A DNA stretch of 43,683 nt from Candidatus Poribacteria bacterium (GTDB lineage Bacteria; Poribacteria; WGA-4E; WGA-3G), in assembly GCA_022825665.1 (NCBI GenBank), contig JAJDWI010000052.1:1-43683 (forward strand), given 5' to 3'. Shown here one piece after another: positions 2,740 through 13,152 of the stretch. The notes under the pieces were generated by a model that worked only from the letters and a program-made list of their open reading frames with translations, made no database searches and was not told where the DNA came from. Numbering within the stretch: position 1 is the first letter of the stretch; the number at the start of each line of letters is the position of its first letter. Made by a program: the position numbers and the translations under genes.

Positions 2740-4392
2740 ATGAAAATATTATACACAAGTTTGCTCATCCTGATGGTAATAAGTGGACAATTGTATGCTG
2801 AAGAGCATTCGGCAGCAAACAACAAAATTACACTAAAACTTGACGATTCTTTGGAGGTGTCAGTTAAAGGTAATATTGCGCCGATAGGGGGTGTCGTGTC
2901 CAATAACTTTAAAGATTGGGATTCCTTGACAAATTTACGGGTTGCAGAACCTGAGAAGAAACATTCCGCATCGGTTTTCGAATCTTTTCTGCCTAACAAA
3001 CCAGTTGCCATTGGTGAACTTTGGATAGTAAATAAGACAGGTGTACTCACCCTACTAAAGCAGCTGCATCCGAATCCAAGTCTGTTTTTACACATCAATG
3101 CAGGTGATTCTCTCGGTTTATGGGCATGTCTGCGGGCATATAATGATAGATACGCAGACATCGTGTTTCGTATCCATGCCGAATTTGTTCTGAAAGATGG
3201 TTGGTTCACGCCTTCACAGTTTACTGGTCATCTGGTTGTTGACCGAATTCATGAGAAAGTTGCTTTTTTTGAGATGTATGTCCCTGAAGGAACGGTAAAC
3301 TTTGATGTCAACAGAAGATCCCATGGCATGCGTATAGCAGGAGCGGGTTATTGCTCACAAATGGAACTCAGAACAGGAGCGAAAGATTTCTTGAAAGACA
3401 TTAAGTTTTCAGAATCCATAACACAAAAAGCAGCTGAACGTGCTTTGATTCTACGTTTCTACAGATCGCAGCAAATTAATTGGGTGTCTCCTGACCAAGT
3501 ATTGGAAATGTCAAAAGCACAGCAGAAACCGATTCATGCTATCTCAATAGATGGACCGTTGATTGATGAGTCGTGCTGAGGAAGTGGCAAAAGCCTGAGG
3601 ACAGGTGTCCTCTCCGATGAAAAAAATATCGATTTCTTGAATGAGAACTTTATCAATACGTGGGTATCAAATGTTGAATTAGAACGCACACCGAATAAGA
3701 AACAATTAATTACTCTCAGACGTCAACAGGGATTCAAACCCTTTGATAAAATGCACCCGTTGTCACAAGCGATCATGAAAGGGTGGAAGGAAGGTTCACC
3801 AGCAGATTCTTTGGTATTCTCTCCTGAACTTGAACTGTTAGGCAGATTACCTGTAAATGAACGCAGTGCCCCTTATAACGGTGCCAAAGGTTACCTTTTA
3901 TTCCTCAAGAATGCTATAGATGGAAAAATGCCCGGATTGAATGAAGATATCCTGGAACCTACCAAAACCGATTGGAATACGCTCGTTGAATCTGGTGCTA
4001 TTGTAGATAGCGGATTAAACGTTGTTCTCACCAATGGGAAGTCGGAACAAGAGGTACTCAGCATTTTTCGTACCCAAGACTATACTATCATCGAAATTGA
4101 TGTGACTACTTATAAAGACGGTGGCATGTTATCTATTGAGATATGGGTTGGGGATGCTGAATTAGCGGGTTCGTTTGATCTGTTTGCTTCTAACGTGGAA
4201 CTTACGCCTGAAAACGCGTTGGCATCTGCAAAGGATATTCTTCCCGATGAAAGGAAAACAATCAACTATCGCTTTGACAAAGGACACGTCTTTAAGTTAG
4301 GAGCAATTGGGAATTCCAGCGAGAAGGTGAAAATCAACGGATTTCTCGCTAATATCTCTGTTAAACCTACGCCAGAAGCAAAGGATGAGTAG
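2740..4392 (+). CDS. Selenoprotein N (SELENON)-like secreted selenoprotein
   Basis: A 550-residue reading frame interrupted only by TGA at 3577-3579, which I read as selenocysteine 280. Residues 1-20 are a signal peptide (cleavage near LYA/EE), so the protein is exported. It matches animal SELENON along its length: FRIHAEF (143-149), QFTGHL (160-165), a VP...N-D strand (181-189), QMEL (207-210), the redox motif SCUGSGKSLR (278-287), then LNENFINTW (300-308). Human SELENON has SCUGSG..LR and LNESFISTW there, recalled from memory. A bacterial SECIS hairpin follows the UGA. Residues about 427-545 form an extra domain homologous to the C-terminus of the next gene's product. AAGGAG precedes the start. 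The likely role is a thioredoxin-fold reductase or redox sensor in the periplasm. TGA is a normal stop for miaA and mnmA here, so general recoding is excluded. Confidence 0.9.
3577..3615 (+). promoter_or_regulatory. Sec UGA codon with bacterial SECIS hairpin
   Basis: UGA at 3577-3579 is followed by a perfect 6-bp stem, GAGGAC (3597-3602) with GTCCTC (3607-3612), closed by an AGGT tetraloop (3603-3606). The loop begins 23 bases after the UGA and has G at its second position. This agrees with the known bacterial SECIS rules: loop about 16-37 bases downstream, small apical loop, G among its first two bases. A mini-hairpin GGC-AAAA-GCC lies between. The element should recruit SelB. Confidence 0.87.
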
Positions 4393-4488: not shown

Positions 4489-5814
4489 ATGAAAAACGAC
4501 GATGTTGAATTAATTCATAATGTTCTTGATGGTGACCAGAACGCTTTTGCGGAATTGGTGCGAAAATACCAGAAACCTATTCATGCGCTCGCGTGGCGGA
4601 AAGTAGGTGATTTCCATATTGCAGAAGAGATTACACAGGATACTTTTCTGAAAGTCTATCAGAAACTGGCAACTTTGGAAGATCCGCGTCGCTTCTCTGG
4701 ATGGCTTTATAGAATTGCTGCACGTCAATGCAATGCATGGCTCAGGAAAAAGCGGATGCAGATGCAATCACTTGATGATATTGATAATAACCTGTTAGAA
4801 AAAATGATCTATTCCAATTATATGACTGAAGAGAAGCAGAAAGAATCTGTAACAGCACAACGTGATGTCGTGCATAAATTGCTTGCACGGCTGCAGGAAA
4901 GTGAACGTACCGTCATGACACTCCATTACTTCGGGGAAATGACATGTGAAGAAATTAGTCGATTTTTGGGTGTATCAGCAAGCACTGTAAAAAGTCGTCT
5001 TCGTCGCGCACGATTGCGTCTAAAGAGAGCAGAACCGATAATCCAAGAAGCATTAGAGGGTTTCCATATTCAATCAAATCTTATTGAGAATATCATGCGA
5101 GAGATTCCTCATATCAAACCCGATTCACCCACTGATGGAAAACCTTTTATGCCATGGACGATCACTATTTCAACTGTTGTTCTCGTGATGATGATGTTAG
5201 AAATAGGCAATCAATTTCTTTCTCGTTTTCAACAACCTTACAACTTTAATGCAAAATCAGAGATGTCTGTGGAGATAATTGACGCACCTATTGTTCTAGA
5301 TATTACATCAAAACCGAATTCCCGTACTCAACAGGGCAGATCCCTGACCCCAAGTCAAGGAAACGGATTTGACCTTAACGCTGTACAATCGGAAAATGTC
5401 CCCAGATTCCTTTCCGCACAAGCGAAGAAAGTTGTCCTCAACGATGTAGAAACTTCACAAAATATTTTGAGTATTTTCCGCACTCCGACTGTTGGTTATC
5501 AAGATTATACTGTGGTTGAGATTGATGCAACAGCATTTAGTGAAGGGGGTTTACTCACGGTTGATATTCGGGTGGGAAGTGCTGAGGCATCTGGGGCATT
5601 CGTTCTGTTTGCAAACGATTCCGATCTACCCATCGGAGATGTTCCTAAGACGATACTTACCGCAGCGTCCGGAATCCCACGCGGTAAAATAGGGAGAATA
5701 ACACATCGTTTTGAACAAGGGGAAACCTTCTTGTTAGGAGCAACTGGTAAAGCGTTTAGTGGAAATGGGAAAGCCAATTCTTTTCTCGCGAGTATTTCTA
5801 TAGATCCTAAATAA
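4489..5814 (+). CDS. Membrane-anchored ECF sigma factor with C-terminal sensor-like domain
   Basis: A 441-residue protein. Sigma region 2 spans about 20-90 (AELVRKYQKP, ITQDTFLKVYQKL, FSGWLYRIA) and region 4 about 125-180 (RTVMTLHYFGEMTCEEIS, SASTVKSRLRRAR). A linker (about 181-219) leads to one hydrophobic segment, 221-244. The remaining roughly 195 residues would be periplasmic. Residues about 325-440 are homologous to the C-terminus of the SelN-like protein just upstream (LSIFRTP, YTVVEID, GGLLTVDIRVG, FLASISI). The start is the ATG at 4489 with GAGG upstream; all four paralogues also begin MKN. It has no ECF promoter of its own, so it is probably cotranscribed with selN. No separate anti-sigma gene is adjacent; the fused domain may take that role. 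Confidence 0.88.
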   Translation: MKNDDVELIHNVLDGDQNAFAELVRKYQKPIHALAWRKVGDFHIAEEITQDTFLKVYQKLATLEDPRRFSGWLYRIAARQCNAWLRKKRMQMQSLDDIDNNLLEKMIYSNYMTEEKQKESVTAQRDVVHKLLARLQESERTVMTLHYFGEMTCEEISRFLGVSASTVKSRLRRARLRLKRAEPIIQEALEGFHIQSNLIENIMREIPHIKPDSPTDGKPFMPWTITISTVVLVMMMLEIGNQFLSRFQQPYNFNAKSEMSVEIIDAPIVLDITSKPNSRTQQGRSLTPSQGNGFDLNAVQSENVPRFLSAQAKKVVLNDVETSQNILSIFRTPTVGYQDYTVVEIDATAFSEGGLLTVDIRVGSAEASGAFVLFANDSDLPIGDVPKTILTAASGIPRGKIGRITHRFEQGETFLLGATGKAFSGNGKANSFLASISIDPK

Positions 5815-5861: not shown

Positions 5862-6884
5862 ATGAAAATCATGAAATTTGTCTCTTATGCATTCCTCATA
5901 TCTGTTGCAGTATTCTCGGTGAATGTTTCTGCCAAAGATTTACCTAACGGTGCTATAGCAAAAATTAATATCGACGATGGACCTGTTAATGCTATCGCAT
6001 ATTCTCGAACCGCAAATCAACTCGCTGTGGCAGCTGGAGAAAATATATACATCCATGATGCAAGCACATATAAAGAGTTAAGGAAGTTAAGCGGACATAC
6101 CGATTCGGTATCAGCACTTGCCTATTCTCCTAATGGTAAACTTCTCGTAAGTGGTGGTTTAGACAAGACAGTGCGGTTGTGGGAGACAGAGACCGGAATA
6201 CTCAGACGCACCCGAGAAGAGCACACAGCACCTGTTAATACTGTTGCATTCTCTCGTAACGGTAAAAAGTTTTGGAGTGGAAGCAGCAAAGACAACACAA
6301 TTCGATCTTGGTACCCACGTGATGGTGGTCGGATGAGTTCTCAAATTTCCTCAAGTACAGATGTTACATTCATAACAATCGCATCTTCAAACAAGGGAGA
6401 AACCGTGGCAAAGGTGTATAATACTATGCCGATTAAATGTATTATTAAGATTAGTGGGAATTATTGGCGTGTTGTAAGTGGACATACCGATTCGGTAAAC
6501 GTATTAACCCTTTACCAAGGTGGAAAATCTTTCGCTACCGGAAGCATGGACAAAACAATCCAGTTATGGCATATAGCAGACAGAAACAAACCTCTTTATA
6601 CTTTTATAGGACATACAGATGCTATCACCGCTATGGATTTCTCTATAAATGGTAAACTTCTTGCAAGCGGGAGTTCCGATAAAACGGTTCGTTTATGGGA
6701 TATTACAAATGGAAAGCATCTGCATACGTTTACAGGACATACAGGTGAGATTGGTGCAGTAACTTTTCTGGGAGATAAGGCACTTGTAGATACTGCCTTT
6801 GCTAAAGACAAAGGTCTTGCCAGCGGATGTTCAGATGGCACAGTTATCTTATGGGATATTGAAAAAATCATCTCAACGAACTAA
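5862..6884 (+). CDS. Secreted WD40-repeat beta-propeller protein
   Basis: A 340-residue protein with a signal peptide (about 1-24, ending VSA). At least six WD40 blades are recognisable from GH...WD spacing, for example GHTDSVSALAYSPNG, SGSSDKTVRLWDI and SDGTVILWDI. A degenerate stretch around residues 155-195 probably supplies the seventh blade. It lies 47 bases after the ECF gene with AAGGA before the ATG, so it is likely the third gene of the selN-ECF operon. Its role is probably protein binding in the periplasm. The next gene encodes an ECF fused to similar repeats, so this separate propeller may be a partner of, or a split version of, that architecture. Ligand unknown. Confidence 0.85.
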   Translation: MKIMKFVSYAFLISVAVFSVNVSAKDLPNGAIAKINIDDGPVNAIAYSRTANQLAVAAGENIYIHDASTYKELRKLSGHTDSVSALAYSPNGKLLVSGGLDKTVRLWETETGILRRTREEHTAPVNTVAFSRNGKKFWSGSSKDNTIRSWYPRDGGRMSSQISSSTDVTFITIASSNKGETVAKVYNTMPIKCIIKISGNYWRVVSGHTDSVNVLTLYQGGKSFATGSMDKTIQLWHIADRNKPLYTFIGHTDAITAMDFSINGKLLASGSSDKTVRLWDITNGKHLHTFTGHTGEIGAVTFLGDKALVDTAFAKDKGLASGCSDGTVILWDIEKIISTN

Positions 6885-6914
6885 TTTCCACGAATTGCAC
6901 TTTTTTGTAAGAAA

Positions 6915-6947
6915 TGCACCCGTATTATCGTTTCACGCGTCACTATA
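6915..6947 (+). promoter_or_regulatory. ECF-type promoter of the ECF-WD40 gene
   Basis: TGCACC at 6915-6920, 17 bases, then CGTC at 6938-6941 within GCGTCACTATA. The -10 block is identical to that of the selN operon, while the -35 has a shifted A/C relative to GCAACC. It sits 45 bases upstream of the ATG at 6992. Confidence 0.75.
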
Positions 6948-6991
6948 TGTGAAAATGAATCGTAATGATTATTCCTTTGTGGAGTCTACCG

Positions 6992-9922
6992 ATGAAAAAC
7001 GAAGACGCTGATATGATTCAACGCACACTTTCTGGAGATAATAACGCCTTCTCTGAGTTAGTGAAGAAATATCAGAAACAAGTTCACACACTTGTATGGC
7101 GAAAAACAGGAGATTTCCATCTCGCTGAAGATATTACACAAGATACCTTCCTCAAAGCGTATCAGAGACTTCACACCCTCAAAGAACCGCACAGGTTTGC
7201 AGGATGGCTTTATGTCATTGCAACCCGTCGCTGTCTCTCGTGGCATCGCAAAAAACGTCGGCATACACAAGCATTGGAAAAGATAGATACGCCTATAACA
7301 AACAAAGATGCGTATTCACGACATGTTGCGGAGGAACAAGCGCAAACTACTAATAAGGCACAGCAAGAGGTTGTCAAAAAATTACTCGCAGAATTGAAGG
7401 AAAGTGATCGAACCGTCATCACACTATACTACTTTGCTGAGATGACGTGTGAACAGATGAGTGAATTTTTGGGTGTATCTGCAAATACGATAAAGAGCCG
7501 ACTCCGCCGCGCACGGAACAAATTGAAACAGGAGGAACCGATGATCCGAGAAGCAATTACAAACTTTAAAATATCACCAATCTTAACCGATAACATCATG
7601 CAAGAAATCACAAAATTCAAACCCGCTGCACCTTCTGTCAGCAAACCTTTGCTTCCGTGGGTAATAAGTGCATCAAGTGCTGTTTTGGTTATGTTAATGC
7701 TTGGTATTGGAAGCCAATATCTTGGACATTTCCAGTTACCCTACAGTCTGGATGTACAGTCTGAAACAACGGTTGAACTTGTTGACGCACAAATTGTGCA
7801 GAACCTTGAGGTGAAACCGATTGTGCCAAATCAATCGGAGAAACATGCCGATGCTGGTGGTAGCGATAATGGAAATGGAAATGAAGCGAATCAGGTGTTA
7901 AGTGATGATGGAGACTACACTCGGTGGAATCTACCAGAAGGTGCGAAACATAGACTCGGTAAAGGCAGCATAAACGGCATAAGTTTTTCACCAGATGGCA
8001 CTCAAATTGCTGTAGGAAGTGCTACCGGGGTTTGGATCTATGATGTTCGCACAGGTGCTGAACTCTCGCTACTGACTGACCATACAACACCATCAGGGAA
8101 GGTAGCATTCTCTCCGGATAGTAAAACATTAGCAAGCGGAATGCATGATAAAATCTTGCTGTGGAATATAACAACTGGAACACTTCTAAGGATATTTAAA
8201 AATAAGGTAGGATACATAAAAGATCTAAAAATAATTGACGATGGCAAAACTCTTCTCTGTAAGAATAGCAACGGTTCAGTTCGTTTATGGGACATCTCTA
8301 CTGGCGTAATTAAGGACTTCCTCCCTCCACCACCGCATGGAGCAAGTCCATTACCGAGATACATAAAGGGGTATTTTTACAAAAAGGAATATGAAATTAA
8401 ATCAGCAGATTTATACCTTAACAACGTTGACAATAAAGGCATTTTTGCGGTCGGGGAAGTGGATGGTAAAATTCAATTGGAGGATGCAATAACCGGAAAG
8501 CATTTAAAAACACTTCAAGACCATAATAAACCTATCTATCAGTTGTTATTTTCGCCAGACGGTACTCTTCTTGTTGCAACTGATAAAGATAGGACTCCAC
8601 TCCGTATTTGGGATGTAACCACTGGGAAACTCCTAAAAACCTTGTCTCAAACTTGGGGAAGGGGAATCCTTACATTTTCTATAGATGGTAAATTATTGGC
8701 TGGTCAGACATCTTCAAGAAAAATTAATTTATGGGATGTTGAGACTAAGACACTTCTCACAACACTTAGTGGAAAGATAGATGACAAAATTAAGGAATTG
8801 GCTATTTCACCAGATTCTAAGACAGTTGCGGGTGCAAGTCAGAATGGTGAAATCCATGTATGGGATGTTAATACCGGTGAAGAGTTATTCTTTGAAAAGT
8901 TATTCTTATATAATAATAAAGAACATACATCTCAACTTGATGAATTAATGTTAGCACCAAATAACAGCCATTTAGCTGCCAGATATGGAAATACAATTAC
9001 ATTGTGGAACACATCAAACTTCACTCAACTTCCTAACCGTATAGATGCAGGTCGATACTCCACTTTCACATTTTCCCCTGATGGTAGCACAGTGACCAGT
9101 GCAAGTGGGTTCATGTATGGGAAACAAATCCGTGATGAATTTGTCAAGGAAAGTGTCGTTGCGACATTAAGTTTTTGGGACACACGTACAGGCAACCAAA
9201 TATCTGAATATCCAGTAGAATCACACAAAGGAGAAATACCAGAGGACTCAGGACAAAGGAAATTTTCAAGTATTGGAAATGGCTCCATAGGGATGTATAA
9301 TCCAGCTATATTTTCTCAAGATGGTTATACGCTTGCCACTGTTCTAAATACATTACGTGAAAATGTTACGGATGATTACCGTTACACCCTGTTCTTATGG
9401 GAAGTATGGGAAGATGAGCGTCGTCGGGTCCATACCACCCTCAAAGGACACACAGATAAAATTAACGTATTGGCATTAACTCCTAACGGCGATACTCTTG
9501 CAAGCGGAAGTGATGATGGAACAATTCGACTTTGGGATACAAGTACTGGAACACAGATATTAAGTATCCCTTCAAGTAAAACCGATGCATTAGCGTTTTC
9601 TATGGATGGTAAAATACTGGCAAGCATTAACAATTCTGTTAGCATCCAACTGTGGGATGTTGGTACCGGCAAACAACTTACATCTCTCAATGGACAAAAC
9701 GAAGTCGTTACCGATTTGAAATTCTCTCCTGATAACAATATACTTGCAAGTGGAAACCTTGACGGGACAATTCAACTGTGGGATATATCTAATGGCAAAC
9801 AATTGGGATTACTTAAAGGACATACCTCCCGACTTATCAATTTAGTGTTTTCTTCTGATGGCAAAACCCTCGTGAGCGGAGGTAGAGATGGAGACATATT
9901 CTTATGGAACGTCCCAAACTAA
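6992..9922 (+). CDS. Membrane-anchored ECF sigma factor fused to WD40 propellers
   Basis: A 976-residue protein. Sigma region 2 is at about 20-90 (ITQDTFLKAYQRL, FAGWLYVIATRR) and region 4 at about 125-180 (SANTIKSRLRRAR). The linker is followed by one transmembrane segment at 222-241. A low-complexity stretch (about 280-305, Gly/Asn-rich) leads into roughly 660 residues of WD40 repeats (FSPDG...WDV), enough for about two seven-bladed propellers. The first repeats begin near 325 and the last blade ends SGGRDGDIFLWNVPN. The start at 6992 is chosen for GGAG seven bases upstream and for the MKN start shared with the paralogues. Predicted topology: sigma domains in the cytoplasm, propellers outside the inner membrane. 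The propeller would have to control the sigma domain across the membrane or through cleavage. ECF-WD40 fusions are known in Planctomycetes from general knowledge. Confidence 0.9.
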   Translation: MKNEDADMIQRTLSGDNNAFSELVKKYQKQVHTLVWRKTGDFHLAEDITQDTFLKAYQRLHTLKEPHRFAGWLYVIATRRCLSWHRKKRRHTQALEKIDTPITNKDAYSRHVAEEQAQTTNKAQQEVVKKLLAELKESDRTVITLYYFAEMTCEQMSEFLGVSANTIKSRLRRARNKLKQEEPMIREAITNFKISPILTDNIMQEITKFKPAAPSVSKPLLPWVISASSAVLVMLMLGIGSQYLGHFQLPYSLDVQSETTVELVDAQIVQNLEVKPIVPNQSEKHADAGGSDNGNGNEANQVLSDDGDYTRWNLPEGAKHRLGKGSINGISFSPDGTQIAVGSATGVWIYDVRTGAELSLLTDHTTPSGKVAFSPDSKTLASGMHDKILLWNITTGTLLRIFKNKVGYIKDLKIIDDGKTLLCKNSNGSVRLWDISTGVIKDFLPPPPHGASPLPRYIKGYFYKKEYEIKSADLYLNNVDNKGIFAVGEVDGKIQLEDAITGKHLKTLQDHNKPIYQLLFSPDGTLLVATDKDRTPLRIWDVTTGKLLKTLSQTWGRGILTFSIDGKLLAGQTSSRKINLWDVETKTLLTTLSGKIDDKIKELAISPDSKTVAGASQNGEIHVWDVNTGEELFFEKLFLYNNKEHTSQLDELMLAPNNSHLAARYGNTITLWNTSNFTQLPNRIDAGRYSTFTFSPDGSTVTSASGFMYGKQIRDEFVKESVVATLSFWDTRTGNQISEYPVESHKGEIPEDSGQRKFSSIGNGSIGMYNPAIFSQDGYTLATVLNTLRENVTDDYRYTLFLWEVWEDERRRVHTTLKGHTDKINVLALTPNGDTLASGSDDGTIRLWDTSTGTQILSIPSSKTDALAFSMDGKILASINNSVSIQLWDVGTGKQLTSLNGQNEVVTDLKFSPDNNILASGNLDGTIQLWDISNGKQLGLLKGHTSRLINLVFSSDGKTLVSGGRDGDIFLWNVPN

Positions 9923-10161: not shown

Positions 10162-13152
10162 ATGAAAAACGACGATGTTGAATTGATTCAACAGGTTCTT
10201 GCTGGCGATGAAAATGCTTTCGCTGAACTTGTGAAAAAGTATCAAAAACCGGTTCATGCACTCGCATGGCGGAAAATTGGGGATTTCCACGTCGCAGAAG
10301 AGATTACGCAGGATACCTTCTTGATAGTGTATCAGAGACTCCATACCCTAAAAGATCCGAATCAGTTTTTTGGATGGCTCTATGTGATTGTAACGCGCCG
10401 ATGCTACGCTTGGCTCCGAAAGAAACGGATACGAACACAACCGTTGGAGGACATAGAAACAACAATGACTCAAAGAGATGCATACTCACGACATGTCGCA
10501 GACCAACGTGCTCAAAGTGCTGTTGAATCACAACGTGATGTAGTCAAACAACTGCTCGCGAAATTGAAGGAGAGTGAACGCACGGTGATGACGTTGTATT
10601 ATCTCGGTGAAATGACCGTCGAAGAAATTAGCAAATTCTTAGGAGTATCATCAGGAACGATTAAAAGCCGATTACAACGAGCACGGAATCGGTTACAGAA
10701 GGAGGAAACGATGATTAGAGAAGCACTCGAACATTTTCAAATTTCACCCAACCTTACCAATAACATCATGCAAGAGGTAAAGAATCTAAAACCTACACCT
10801 TCTGGAAGTCAACCGTTAGTGCCATGGGTAATTGCTACATCAAGTGCGGTTTTGCTTATATTACTACTTGGATTAGGAAGCCAACATTTACTGCAATTTC
10901 AGCAACCATATAGTTTGGATGCACAAGCTGAGATGGCAGTTGAATTTGTTGATACACCTATTGTGCTGAATCTTGACACGAAGCCAGATGTACGTCGTCA
11001 AATTGGAAATGCAAATGCAGAAAATAATAGCAATAATAAGGGTCAAAAACCTAATGAAGTCCTATTTGCTGCCGCAGAGGCACAAGGAGAAGACGTGTCT
11101 GTTTCTAAGCAGGAGTGGATTCAGTCTGAACCTATTGAAGGCACTCAAGTAAATAGTCTACTTGCGACCTCTGATGGACAACTTTACACTGTTACTGGAG
11201 GCATTACTGGTGGACACCTATACAAATTTCAAGACGATAAAACTGGATGGCAATACCTTAGTGACATTCGTTCTATAGCTGACGATAGTCTAGTTGAATA
11301 TCCTATGGCTGAGAGTGATGATACCCTTTATATTCTTCCATCCAATACACTTTATGCTTCAAAGGATGATGGTAAAACATGGAATGTAGTTCACCATTTT
11401 CCAGATGAATTTGATTTTCCTTACGAAATACTGCTAACAGAACAAGCGTATTATATCATTTTTGATCAAGGTGTTTTTCGTTCTGAGGATAAAGGCAAGA
11501 CATGGAAAAACATGGAAGATGAACTACCAAGTGAACCCCGTTCTATCGTAGAGGTCCAAGACACGGTGTTTATTTTAGCTGGTGAACAACTCTATCGCTG
11601 GAACAGTGATAAATGGAAACTTTTAGAATTTCCAATACCTGAATCAAAGGCATGCTTTTCAATTACGACAACTAAAGATCGGTTGTATGTAGCAGCAATC
11701 AATCCTGAATTCAATCCTAATATAGATCCAAAGGATCAACGAAGTTGGTGGATATTTCGTTCAACTGACTTGGGGAATTCGTGGAAAAATATAACCCCAA
11801 CACACGTCTGGAAGGATAGAGTGGGATGGTTCATGGGTATAAACCTATACGCTGCCGGTGAAACGCTTCTGGCAATAGAACAGGGAATGGTACTACGTTC
11901 TACAGATGGCGGAGATACATGGCTACCGCTACAAAATTATGGTAAATCTCTTGAATTGTTTCCCAATTCTCCTGTTGCCGTGTTGTATGAAAGTATTTTC
12001 TATATTGGCAGTCCGAACACCGGACTCCAACGATCCGCTGATAGTGGAAAATCATGGGAGGTGGTTAATGTTACTTCAGATAAAAGTTATATAGGAAAAC
12101 TAATTGTGCATAAAGAAAATGGCAAAGGGAAAGATACACTACCTATTATATATGGGAGTGTTGGAGATATGATAAAAACTACTGACAAAGGACAGTCTTG
12201 GAAAACTATTCCAGCCGATATGTCAACGGAGCTGTGGCATGGTGAAGTTCCCCCTAACATTACACAGATAGTTAAATCTGATGGTGTTGTCTATGCTAAA
12301 GGAAATAATCTTATCACATTTTTTGATGAAGGCGAACCATTGTTATTTCGCTTATCCACAGACGGTAATACATTAGTCCGAATTCAAGACATGCCGATCT
12401 TTGACCCAATTATTGGACAACAATTGTCTAATAAAAAACGGGGGTTGTCAAATCAGGAATTTGCTAAACAGTTGCAAGAAAAATCATCAGGAGCATCAAA
12501 GTTCTTTACAATGTTGGCAAAAATGCCCAATGTGGATCAAGCTAATCTCCGTAGATACGGGTTAGAGGGTCCATTTGCTGTTAGTAATGACACGTTCTAT
12601 ATGGAATACAACTTTAAACTTTTCCGATGGAAACGCGGTGATACTGAATGGTTCGATACTGGATTGGAAGAAACCGTTGATTTATACTTCAACATAGCAA
12701 GTAAAAAGCTTGAACTTGCTGTGTCAGGGAACAAAGTTTATGTCGGCAAACGGGATGGACATCTTGTCGGATCGTTTGATAAAGGCACTACTTGGACTGA
12801 TCTTACGCAATTCCTACCGTTTACAGTAAAAGTTTTCAAAGATATCGTTTTTGTCGGTGACACAGTGTTTGTAGCAACAGATGCAGGTGTAGCAGCATCA
12901 AATCAAGGAAATAATTGGGGTCCTATCACCGATGCAGAGGGAACGAACCTCAAGATGGAAATACTGACTGTTGATGGCACAATGTTATATGGTGTAATAA
13001 AAGACACAGGTATTTATCGCTTGGAAAGTCGTCTTTGGAAACAGATCATCTCAGATATACCTGATAACATAAATTCTCTTGCGGTTGATGGGAGCACCTT
13101 ATACATAGGCACAGAAAATCAAGGTATGCTCCACTATAACCTTGATGAATAA
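10162..13152 (+). CDS. Membrane-anchored ECF sigma factor fused to BNR/Asp-box propeller (paralogue 1)
   Basis: A 996-residue protein. Region 2 (ITQDTFLIVYQRL, FFGWLYVIVTRR) and region 4 (EEISKFLGVSSGTIKSR) occupy about 20-180. The linker MIREALEHFQISPNL precedes a transmembrane segment at about 222-241. The C-terminal 650 or so residues contain at least seven Asp-box (BNR) motifs of S-x-D-x-G-x-T/S-W type: SKDDGKTW, SEDKGKTW, STDLGNSW, STDGGDTW, SADSGKSW, TTDKGQSW and SFDKGTTW. Such repeats mark sialidase/Vps10/photosystem-assembly-type propellers. Without a catalytic set, a binding or sensing role is more likely than hydrolysis. GGAG lies seven bases before the ATG. Its 3' end shares near-identical DNA patches with the two later paralogues. 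Confidence 0.9.
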   Translation: MKNDDVELIQQVLAGDENAFAELVKKYQKPVHALAWRKIGDFHVAEEITQDTFLIVYQRLHTLKDPNQFFGWLYVIVTRRCYAWLRKKRIRTQPLEDIETTMTQRDAYSRHVADQRAQSAVESQRDVVKQLLAKLKESERTVMTLYYLGEMTVEEISKFLGVSSGTIKSRLQRARNRLQKEETMIREALEHFQISPNLTNNIMQEVKNLKPTPSGSQPLVPWVIATSSAVLLILLLGLGSQHLLQFQQPYSLDAQAEMAVEFVDTPIVLNLDTKPDVRRQIGNANAENNSNNKGQKPNEVLFAAAEAQGEDVSVSKQEWIQSEPIEGTQVNSLLATSDGQLYTVTGGITGGHLYKFQDDKTGWQYLSDIRSIADDSLVEYPMAESDDTLYILPSNTLYASKDDGKTWNVVHHFPDEFDFPYEILLTEQAYYIIFDQGVFRSEDKGKTWKNMEDELPSEPRSIVEVQDTVFILAGEQLYRWNSDKWKLLEFPIPESKACFSITTTKDRLYVAAINPEFNPNIDPKDQRSWWIFRSTDLGNSWKNITPTHVWKDRVGWFMGINLYAAGETLLAIEQGMVLRSTDGGDTWLPLQNYGKSLELFPNSPVAVLYESIFYIGSPNTGLQRSADSGKSWEVVNVTSDKSYIGKLIVHKENGKGKDTLPIIYGSVGDMIKTTDKGQSWKTIPADMSTELWHGEVPPNITQIVKSDGVVYAKGNNLITFFDEGEPLLFRLSTDGNTLVRIQDMPIFDPIIGQQLSNKKRGLSNQEFAKQLQEKSSGASKFFTMLAKMPNVDQANLRRYGLEGPFAVSNDTFYMEYNFKLFRWKRGDTEWFDTGLEETVDLYFNIASKKLELAVSGNKVYVGKRDGHLVGSFDKGTTWTDLTQFLPFTVKVFKDIVFVGDTVFVATDAGVAASNQGNNWGPITDAEGTNLKMEILTVDGTMLYGVIKDTGIYRLESRLWKQIISDIPDNINSLAVDGSTLYIGTENQGMLHYNLDE

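Follow-up and report, generated by a model that had tools for sequence, protein, structure and literature searches.

The window analyzed here, a stretch of DNA of 43,683 nucleotides, carries on its plus strand at positions 2740–4392 a gene of 550 codons that is assigned to the SelN family by its translation, its homologues and BLASTP, contains TGA 3577 as a predicted selenocysteine (Sec) codon and ends with the stop codon TAG. A Shine-Dalgarno-like AAGGAG is apparent in the sequence at 2728–2733 of the same strand, ahead of the start codon ATG 2740. An initial sequence-only reading of this DNA had considered two open reading frames in the same frame, split only by a TGA, as one gene, and the translation bears this out: the 550 residues are interrupted by a single internal stop, TGA 3577–3579 (plus strand), which corresponds to residue 280 in DESCUGSGKSLR and which translation and homologues identify as U280 of the SCUGSG motif. 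The five motif blocks named in that reading are all found in the translated gene, i.e. FRIHAEF (residues 143–149), QFTGH (160–164), QMEL (207–210), SCUGSGKSLR (278–287) and LNENFINTW (300–308).

The protein is predicted to consist of a signal peptide and three domains, all encoded on the plus strand. Residues 1–20 (MKILYTSLLILMVISGQLYA, 2740–2799) resemble a signal peptide with a putative cleavage site, as judged by the hydrophobicity profile and the low confidence of the N-terminus in the structural model, which agrees with the earlier proposal of an exported form. Export is not a family-wide trait of SelN, since a hydrophobic N-terminus is present in 88 of the 282 family members and many paralogues possess no signal peptide. 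The AlphaFold2 model of the full protein reached a pLDDT of 88. According to AlphaFold2 and structure searches, residues 27–228 (2818–3423) form an N-terminal beta domain that carries the FRIHAEF, QFTGH and QMEL blocks and includes Cys130, which is kept in 48/52 bacterial members and in human SELENON. Modelled by itself, this domain reached a pLDDT of 92; a Foldseek search against solved structures returned no match at an E-value of 0.001 or better, and the top VIA-align entry was only OmpX with a Z-score of 5.6, a resemblance that may reflect nothing but the common barrel arrangement. The following thioredoxin-fold domain (residues about 229–400, 3424–3939), assigned by VIA-align to solved structures, holds C279-U280; in the model, the fold is formed by residues 244–396. 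Its best match among solved structures is DsbH (Z 12.5, rmsd 3.4, 126 aligned residues), and AGR3 (Z 11.0) and ERp19 (Z 10.7) are also close. Hence, the fold prediction proposed by the sequence-only reading places the Sec within a predicted thioredoxin fold. The C-terminal part (residues about 420–543, 3997–4368; residues 417–542 of the model) is modelled as a beta-sandwich which in VIA-align resembles PliG (Z 11.3) and collagen-binding domains (Z 9–10) and which is shared with a sigma factor encoded downstream. Comparison of the model with a viral structure library yielded weak and partial matches, nothing more.

Whether TGA 3577 encodes Sec was judged from the decoding machinery and from the conservation of the codon and its surroundings. 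The genome from which the gene originates (4.53 Mb, 95% complete) harbors all four genes that the earlier reading had suggested to search for: selA (612 bits), selB (354 bits), selD (362 bits) and, directly downstream of selB, the tRNA-Sec gene selC (78 bits) with the anticodon UCA (tca in the gene). The selD gene (locus L011) has an in-frame TGA of its own, so that SelD itself is a predicted selenoprotein. Homologues of the SelN protein are present in 65 of the 85 genomes of the phylum, with exactly one TGA in almost all site-spanning matches listed. Homologues that consistently stop at this codon, the outcome that the sequence-only reading had set against its own proposal, did not turn up; instead, of 216 distinct motif-bearing sequences from bacteria, 214 carry Cys-TGA at this site, and the other two carry Cys-Gly and Cys-Ser. 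Two homologues without the TGA (locus L064, 4043–5782, and locus L063, 5833–7479) have Gly or Ser rather than Cys at the Sec position and keep the adjacent Cys. In a few homologues (in G055, G056, G073 and G083) a TAA occurs in frame, either alongside the TGA or in its absence; these are perhaps decaying copies or assembly errors.

Directly 3′ of the TGA we found a SECIS-like hairpin, GAGGAC-AGGU-GUCCUC (3597–3612, plus strand), whose apical loop (3603–3606) lies 23 nt past the UGA and which is indicated by folding, by base pairing among homologues and by frozen synonymous sites. It spans codons +6 to +11 after the TGA, has a folding z-score of −2.5 and contains a G in its apical loop, the feature tested for bacterial SECIS elements. 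Each of its six base pairs is preserved in 87–100% of 208 homologues. Among conserved residues, the codon entropy at +8 to +11 amounts to 0–0.19 of its maximum compared to mostly 0.4–1.0 elsewhere, and the Arg at +7 is encoded by AGG or AGA in every case. Because the codons of the hairpin show near-zero synonymous variation, it appears to be a bacterial SECIS under selection. An exact DNA pattern that combines the UGA with the hairpin gave 279 matches, which are spread over 63 of the 85 genomes of the phylum with up to 12 per genome; read backwards, it occurs zero times in the same 85 genomes, and it is absent from all of 100 shuffles of the window. Judged by its sequence, the gene with its UGA and hairpin is thus conserved far beyond chance. 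A search of Rfam around the TGA site gave chance-level matches only.

These data bear on two other ways in which the TGA could be understood. If it were an ordinary stop, the gene would be split or decayed, and TGA indeed serves as the terminator of 3 of the 27 long open reading frames of the window. The same TGA is, however, found in 214/216 homologues, identity is high on both sides of it, the synonymous sites that follow it are frozen and the sel machinery is complete, which leaves this explanation a virtually negligible probability. Alternatively, the UGA could be read as another amino acid, either by a reassigned code or by leaky read-through, as the pervasiveness of in-frame TGA in the SelN family might suggest. 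This we regard as extremely improbable, since TGA terminates other genes of the window, its in-frame occurrence is limited to one catalytic-looking site beside a Cys, the genome encodes a tRNA-Sec with a UCA anticodon and the rare forms without TGA have Gly or Ser instead. Decoding of UGA 3577 as Sec by the SelA, SelB, SelC and SelD components of this genome, guided by the downstream SECIS, is thus a strongly supported prediction.

For comparison, a working sequence of human SELENON was used, which was checked against published residue numbers. It has Sec at position 428 (short isoform) and, in long-isoform numbering, the EF-hand Asp at 80 and the chain end at 590, and positions Arg262, Arg268, Arg291, Arg466 and Arg469 are all arginine; in these features (D80, Sec428/462, the arginines and 590) it matches the published SELENON numbering (PMC7474598, PMC12839072, PMC8967691, PMC8639696). 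In BLASTP, the SelN protein shares 30% identity over 216 amino acids with this sequence (E 2e-23), and with a longer stretch the E-value was 1e-29 over 325 positions. Another poribacterial copy and a planctomycetal copy reached E-values of 1e-39 and 1e-37 against the same working sequence, respectively. The similarity covers the N-terminal domain before the Sec as well as the thioredoxin domain, in total 290–363 positions. It is significant to either side of the UGA; the sequence-only reading had named a lack of such similarity as a refutation. Out of the 75 columns conserved to at least 90% in the bacterial proteins, 51 are identical in the human working sequence, including Arg291 and Arg469, at which missense variants have been published. 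The SCUG motif of SelN has been described before (PMC12839072). SELENON, described in the sequence-only reading as chiefly known from animals, has been reported from animals, a sponge among them (PMC3473315), and also from some algae (PMC7539508).

When compared to animal SELENON, the bacterial proteins share the SCUGSG motif with a UGA-encoded Sec, the thioredoxin domain, the N-terminal domain with FRIHAEF, QFTGH and QMEL and the residues Arg291, Arg469 and Sec462, for which variants are published. In contrast to it, they possess neither an EF-hand nor a type II membrane anchor, their SECIS lies in frame instead of in the 3′ UTR and they occur in multiple copies, and the protein encoded at 2740–4392 additionally differs by its signal peptide and its extra C-terminal beta-sandwich. 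An EF-hand-like loop corresponding to the D80 loop was found in none of eight bacterial members, and Pfam returned no EF-hand match. As for the anchor, the N-terminus encoded at 2740–4392 resembles a signal peptide and many paralogues have no such N-terminus; bacteria have no ER. Hence, the gene product is, as far as its sequence tells, a member of the SelN superfamily with the catalytic and N-terminal domains, in which the animal-specific features are absent.

The fold of the Sec domain is also found in DsbH, ERp18/ERp19 and the AGR proteins, which are exported or ER-resident. One could thus consider the protein a DsbH/ERp18-like selenoprotein that is SELENON-like only around the motif, as no solved fold comes closer to the thioredoxin domain than those of DsbH, AGR3 and ERp19 and the Thioredox_DsbH profile marginally matches one of 52 SelN members (E 0.09). 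The active sites of DsbH, ERp18/ERp19 and the AGR proteins are of the CxxC type, unlike the C-U site of SelN, and these proteins lack the N-terminal domain of SelN. As the similarity to SELENON includes this domain over 290–363 positions and comprises the published disease sites Arg291 and Arg469, we consider such an assignment highly improbable and favor membership in the SelN superfamily.

A scan of GTDB species genomes, from which 72 loci were kept, places SelN in Poribacteria (70 loci) and Planctomycetota (2 loci, with selA in both genomes). In named collections the closest relatives belong to Candidatus Poribacteria, and the host is thus almost certainly a member of this group. Among 392 Planctomycetota genomes, about ten contain a clear SelN (E below 1e-39). 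In most of the remaining ~55 Planctomycetota genomes with matches, the matches are weaker and largely represent thioredoxin-like Sec proteins of another kind, whose motifs differ from that of SelN. Loci L180–L198 of Planctomycetota show an in-frame TGA in the motifs GLUSAGHSLRA, GRCUGGA.ALRAG and EFCUANGR; like SelN, these proteins have an in-frame TGA and match the profile of the SelN thioredoxin domain weakly, but they match without the SelN N-terminal domain and differ in their motifs. They may represent relatives of the SelN thioredoxin domain that form selenoprotein families not described so far. Searches of plasmids and phages gave zero matches to the SelN protein, and searches of viral contigs with the protein and alignment A1 gave zero confirmed relatives.

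Within Poribacteria, SelN is a large expanded family and not a single gene. The genome studied here has five copies, the one at 2740–4392 and four in tandem on another contig (C158; locus L059, 8367–15806). Among these four, one has an additional domain at its C-terminus, and a gene for a transposase of the IS605 type is located immediately upstream of them. Our tree, which is unrooted and includes one eukaryote (human), splits into two sides with support 100/100: the human protein, Planctomycetota and one poribacterial type on the first, and the expanded poribacterial type, with the 2740–4392 copy in it, on the second. This copy thus appears to be located on a Poribacteria-specific side branch, and other bacterial copies appear nearer to the human protein. 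The claim of a bacterial SELENON homologue therefore stands with regard to homology but not if understood as the closest bacterial counterpart. In an AU test, a placement of the human protein on the side of the 2740–4392 copy was not rejected (p 0.26), so that the exact position of the animals in this tree is tentative.

Poribacteria are sponge inhabitants, which counts in favor of an acquisition of the bacterial SelN genes from the animal host by gene transfer, as does the report of SELENON from a sponge (PMC3473315). Speaking against such a transfer, the family is deeply diverse in Poribacteria and also present in Planctomycetota, and the SECIS is of the bacterial, in-frame kind; the tree itself is unrooted and includes a single eukaryote. 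We regard a transfer from the host as very improbable.

The next gene downstream of SelN, at 4489–5814 on the plus strand, encodes an ECF sigma factor according to Pfam. The sigma-factor part is followed by a predicted membrane helix and by a domain that is homologous to the C-terminal domain of SelN. The transmembrane helix (residues about 219–240, 5143–5208) is predicted from the hydrophobicity profile, and the SelN-type C-terminal domain (5428–5814) shows 45% identity (E 3.8e-21), both on the plus strand. In the fetched loci, of which overlapping ones were counted repeatedly, 32 of 38 such sigma-factor fusion genes are positioned directly downstream of a SelN gene, so that this arrangement is also seen in other Poribacteria. 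The two genes thus likely form an operon, with their co-expression inferred from the conserved gene order. WD40-repeat genes (5862–9922) adjoin the SelN and sigma-factor genes and are also located between SelN copies in locus L062. At 10162–13152 the window encodes another ECF sigma factor, here with a repeat domain of the Sortilin/BNR type as its fusion partner.

Taken together, it is quite probable in our view that the gene encodes an exported bacterial selenoprotein belonging to the SelN superfamily, in which Sec280 together with Cys279 in a thioredoxin fold would act as a thiol or peroxide reductase of the envelope, with a possible link to the sigma factor. In this mechanism, UGA 3577 would be translated as Sec by SelA, SelB, SelC and SelD under guidance of the hairpin just 3′ of it. 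Sequence comparison and the predicted model suggest that Sec280 probably occupies the nucleophile position of thioredoxins, and Cys279 would probably resolve it by forming a selenylsulfide, in the manner of the GCUG motif of thioredoxin reductases, with which SCUG has been compared. The most likely function of the protein would be to reduce peroxides or oxidised thiols of the envelope. Its partner would probably be selected by the beta domain at the N-terminus and the beta-sandwich at the C-terminus, with the latter binding it, possibly in the form of the sigma-factor protein. Based on gene order, the 2740–4392 copy is probably co-expressed with the membrane-anchored ECF sigma factor, whose predicted outer domain is of the SelN type, and may report the redox state to it. 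As the protein has no EF-hand, the function of SELENON as a calcium sensor should not be transferred to it.

A different division of labor is conceivable, in which the SelN protein would chiefly serve the ECF sigma factor, as its sensor or as a structural partner, and oxidation of Cys279-Sec280 would alter the binding between the matching C-terminal domains and switch transcription without enzymatic turnover. The C-terminal domain common to both proteins, the gene order (32/38) and the membrane helix of the sigma-factor protein fit such a role. We nevertheless judge it unlikely, as no sigma-factor gene lies among the four SelN copies that this genome carries in tandem, the Planctomycetota SelN proteins shown end without the C-terminal beta-sandwich and the Cys-Sec site is retained in nearly all SelN proteins. 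We hence favor the envelope reductase.

Loss of SELENON causes congenital myopathy. The protein was without a solved structure in 2020 (PMC7474598), and no SELENON structure was found in the 2026 copy of the PDB, in which sequence searches yielded no significant match to the SelN protein, A1, A2 or the working sequence of human SELENON. Likewise, Pfam and NCBIfam contained no significant model match for the protein or the family. Among the 119 prokaryotic selenoprotein families inventoried in a 2026 review (PMC13188914, Table 1), with which SelN shares UGA/SECIS decoding and, in several cases, CU motifs, SelN is not included; families shared with eukaryotes are SelD, GPX, deiodinase, SELENOW, MsrA and a SelO-like protein (PMC13188914). 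In the literature searched, with limited coverage of subscription journals so that an earlier report is possible, we found no description of bacterial SelN or of selenocysteine in Poribacteria. Bacterial SelN would thus represent a further eukaryote-shared family in the bacterial selenoproteome.

As a broader scenario, which we put forward tentatively and hold to be rather doubtful, SELENON might derive from an old and diverse bacterial family of Poribacteria and Planctomycetota that expanded in Poribacteria into many exported and cytosolic selenoenzymes, with the exported type and a membrane-tethered ECF sigma factor pairing via their shared C-terminal domains to sense the redox state by means of Sec. 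For the sponge symbionts, the finding means a large expansion of a single selenoprotein family, with up to 12 copies of the exact pattern in one genome. For the family, the bacterial proteins, lacking EF-hand and anchor, mark a shared core in which 51 of 75 conserved columns, disease sites included, are identical in the human protein. With the chemistry of SELENON unsettled, they offer practical material for structure determination and enzymology, and a poorly understood family becomes open to study in bacteria.
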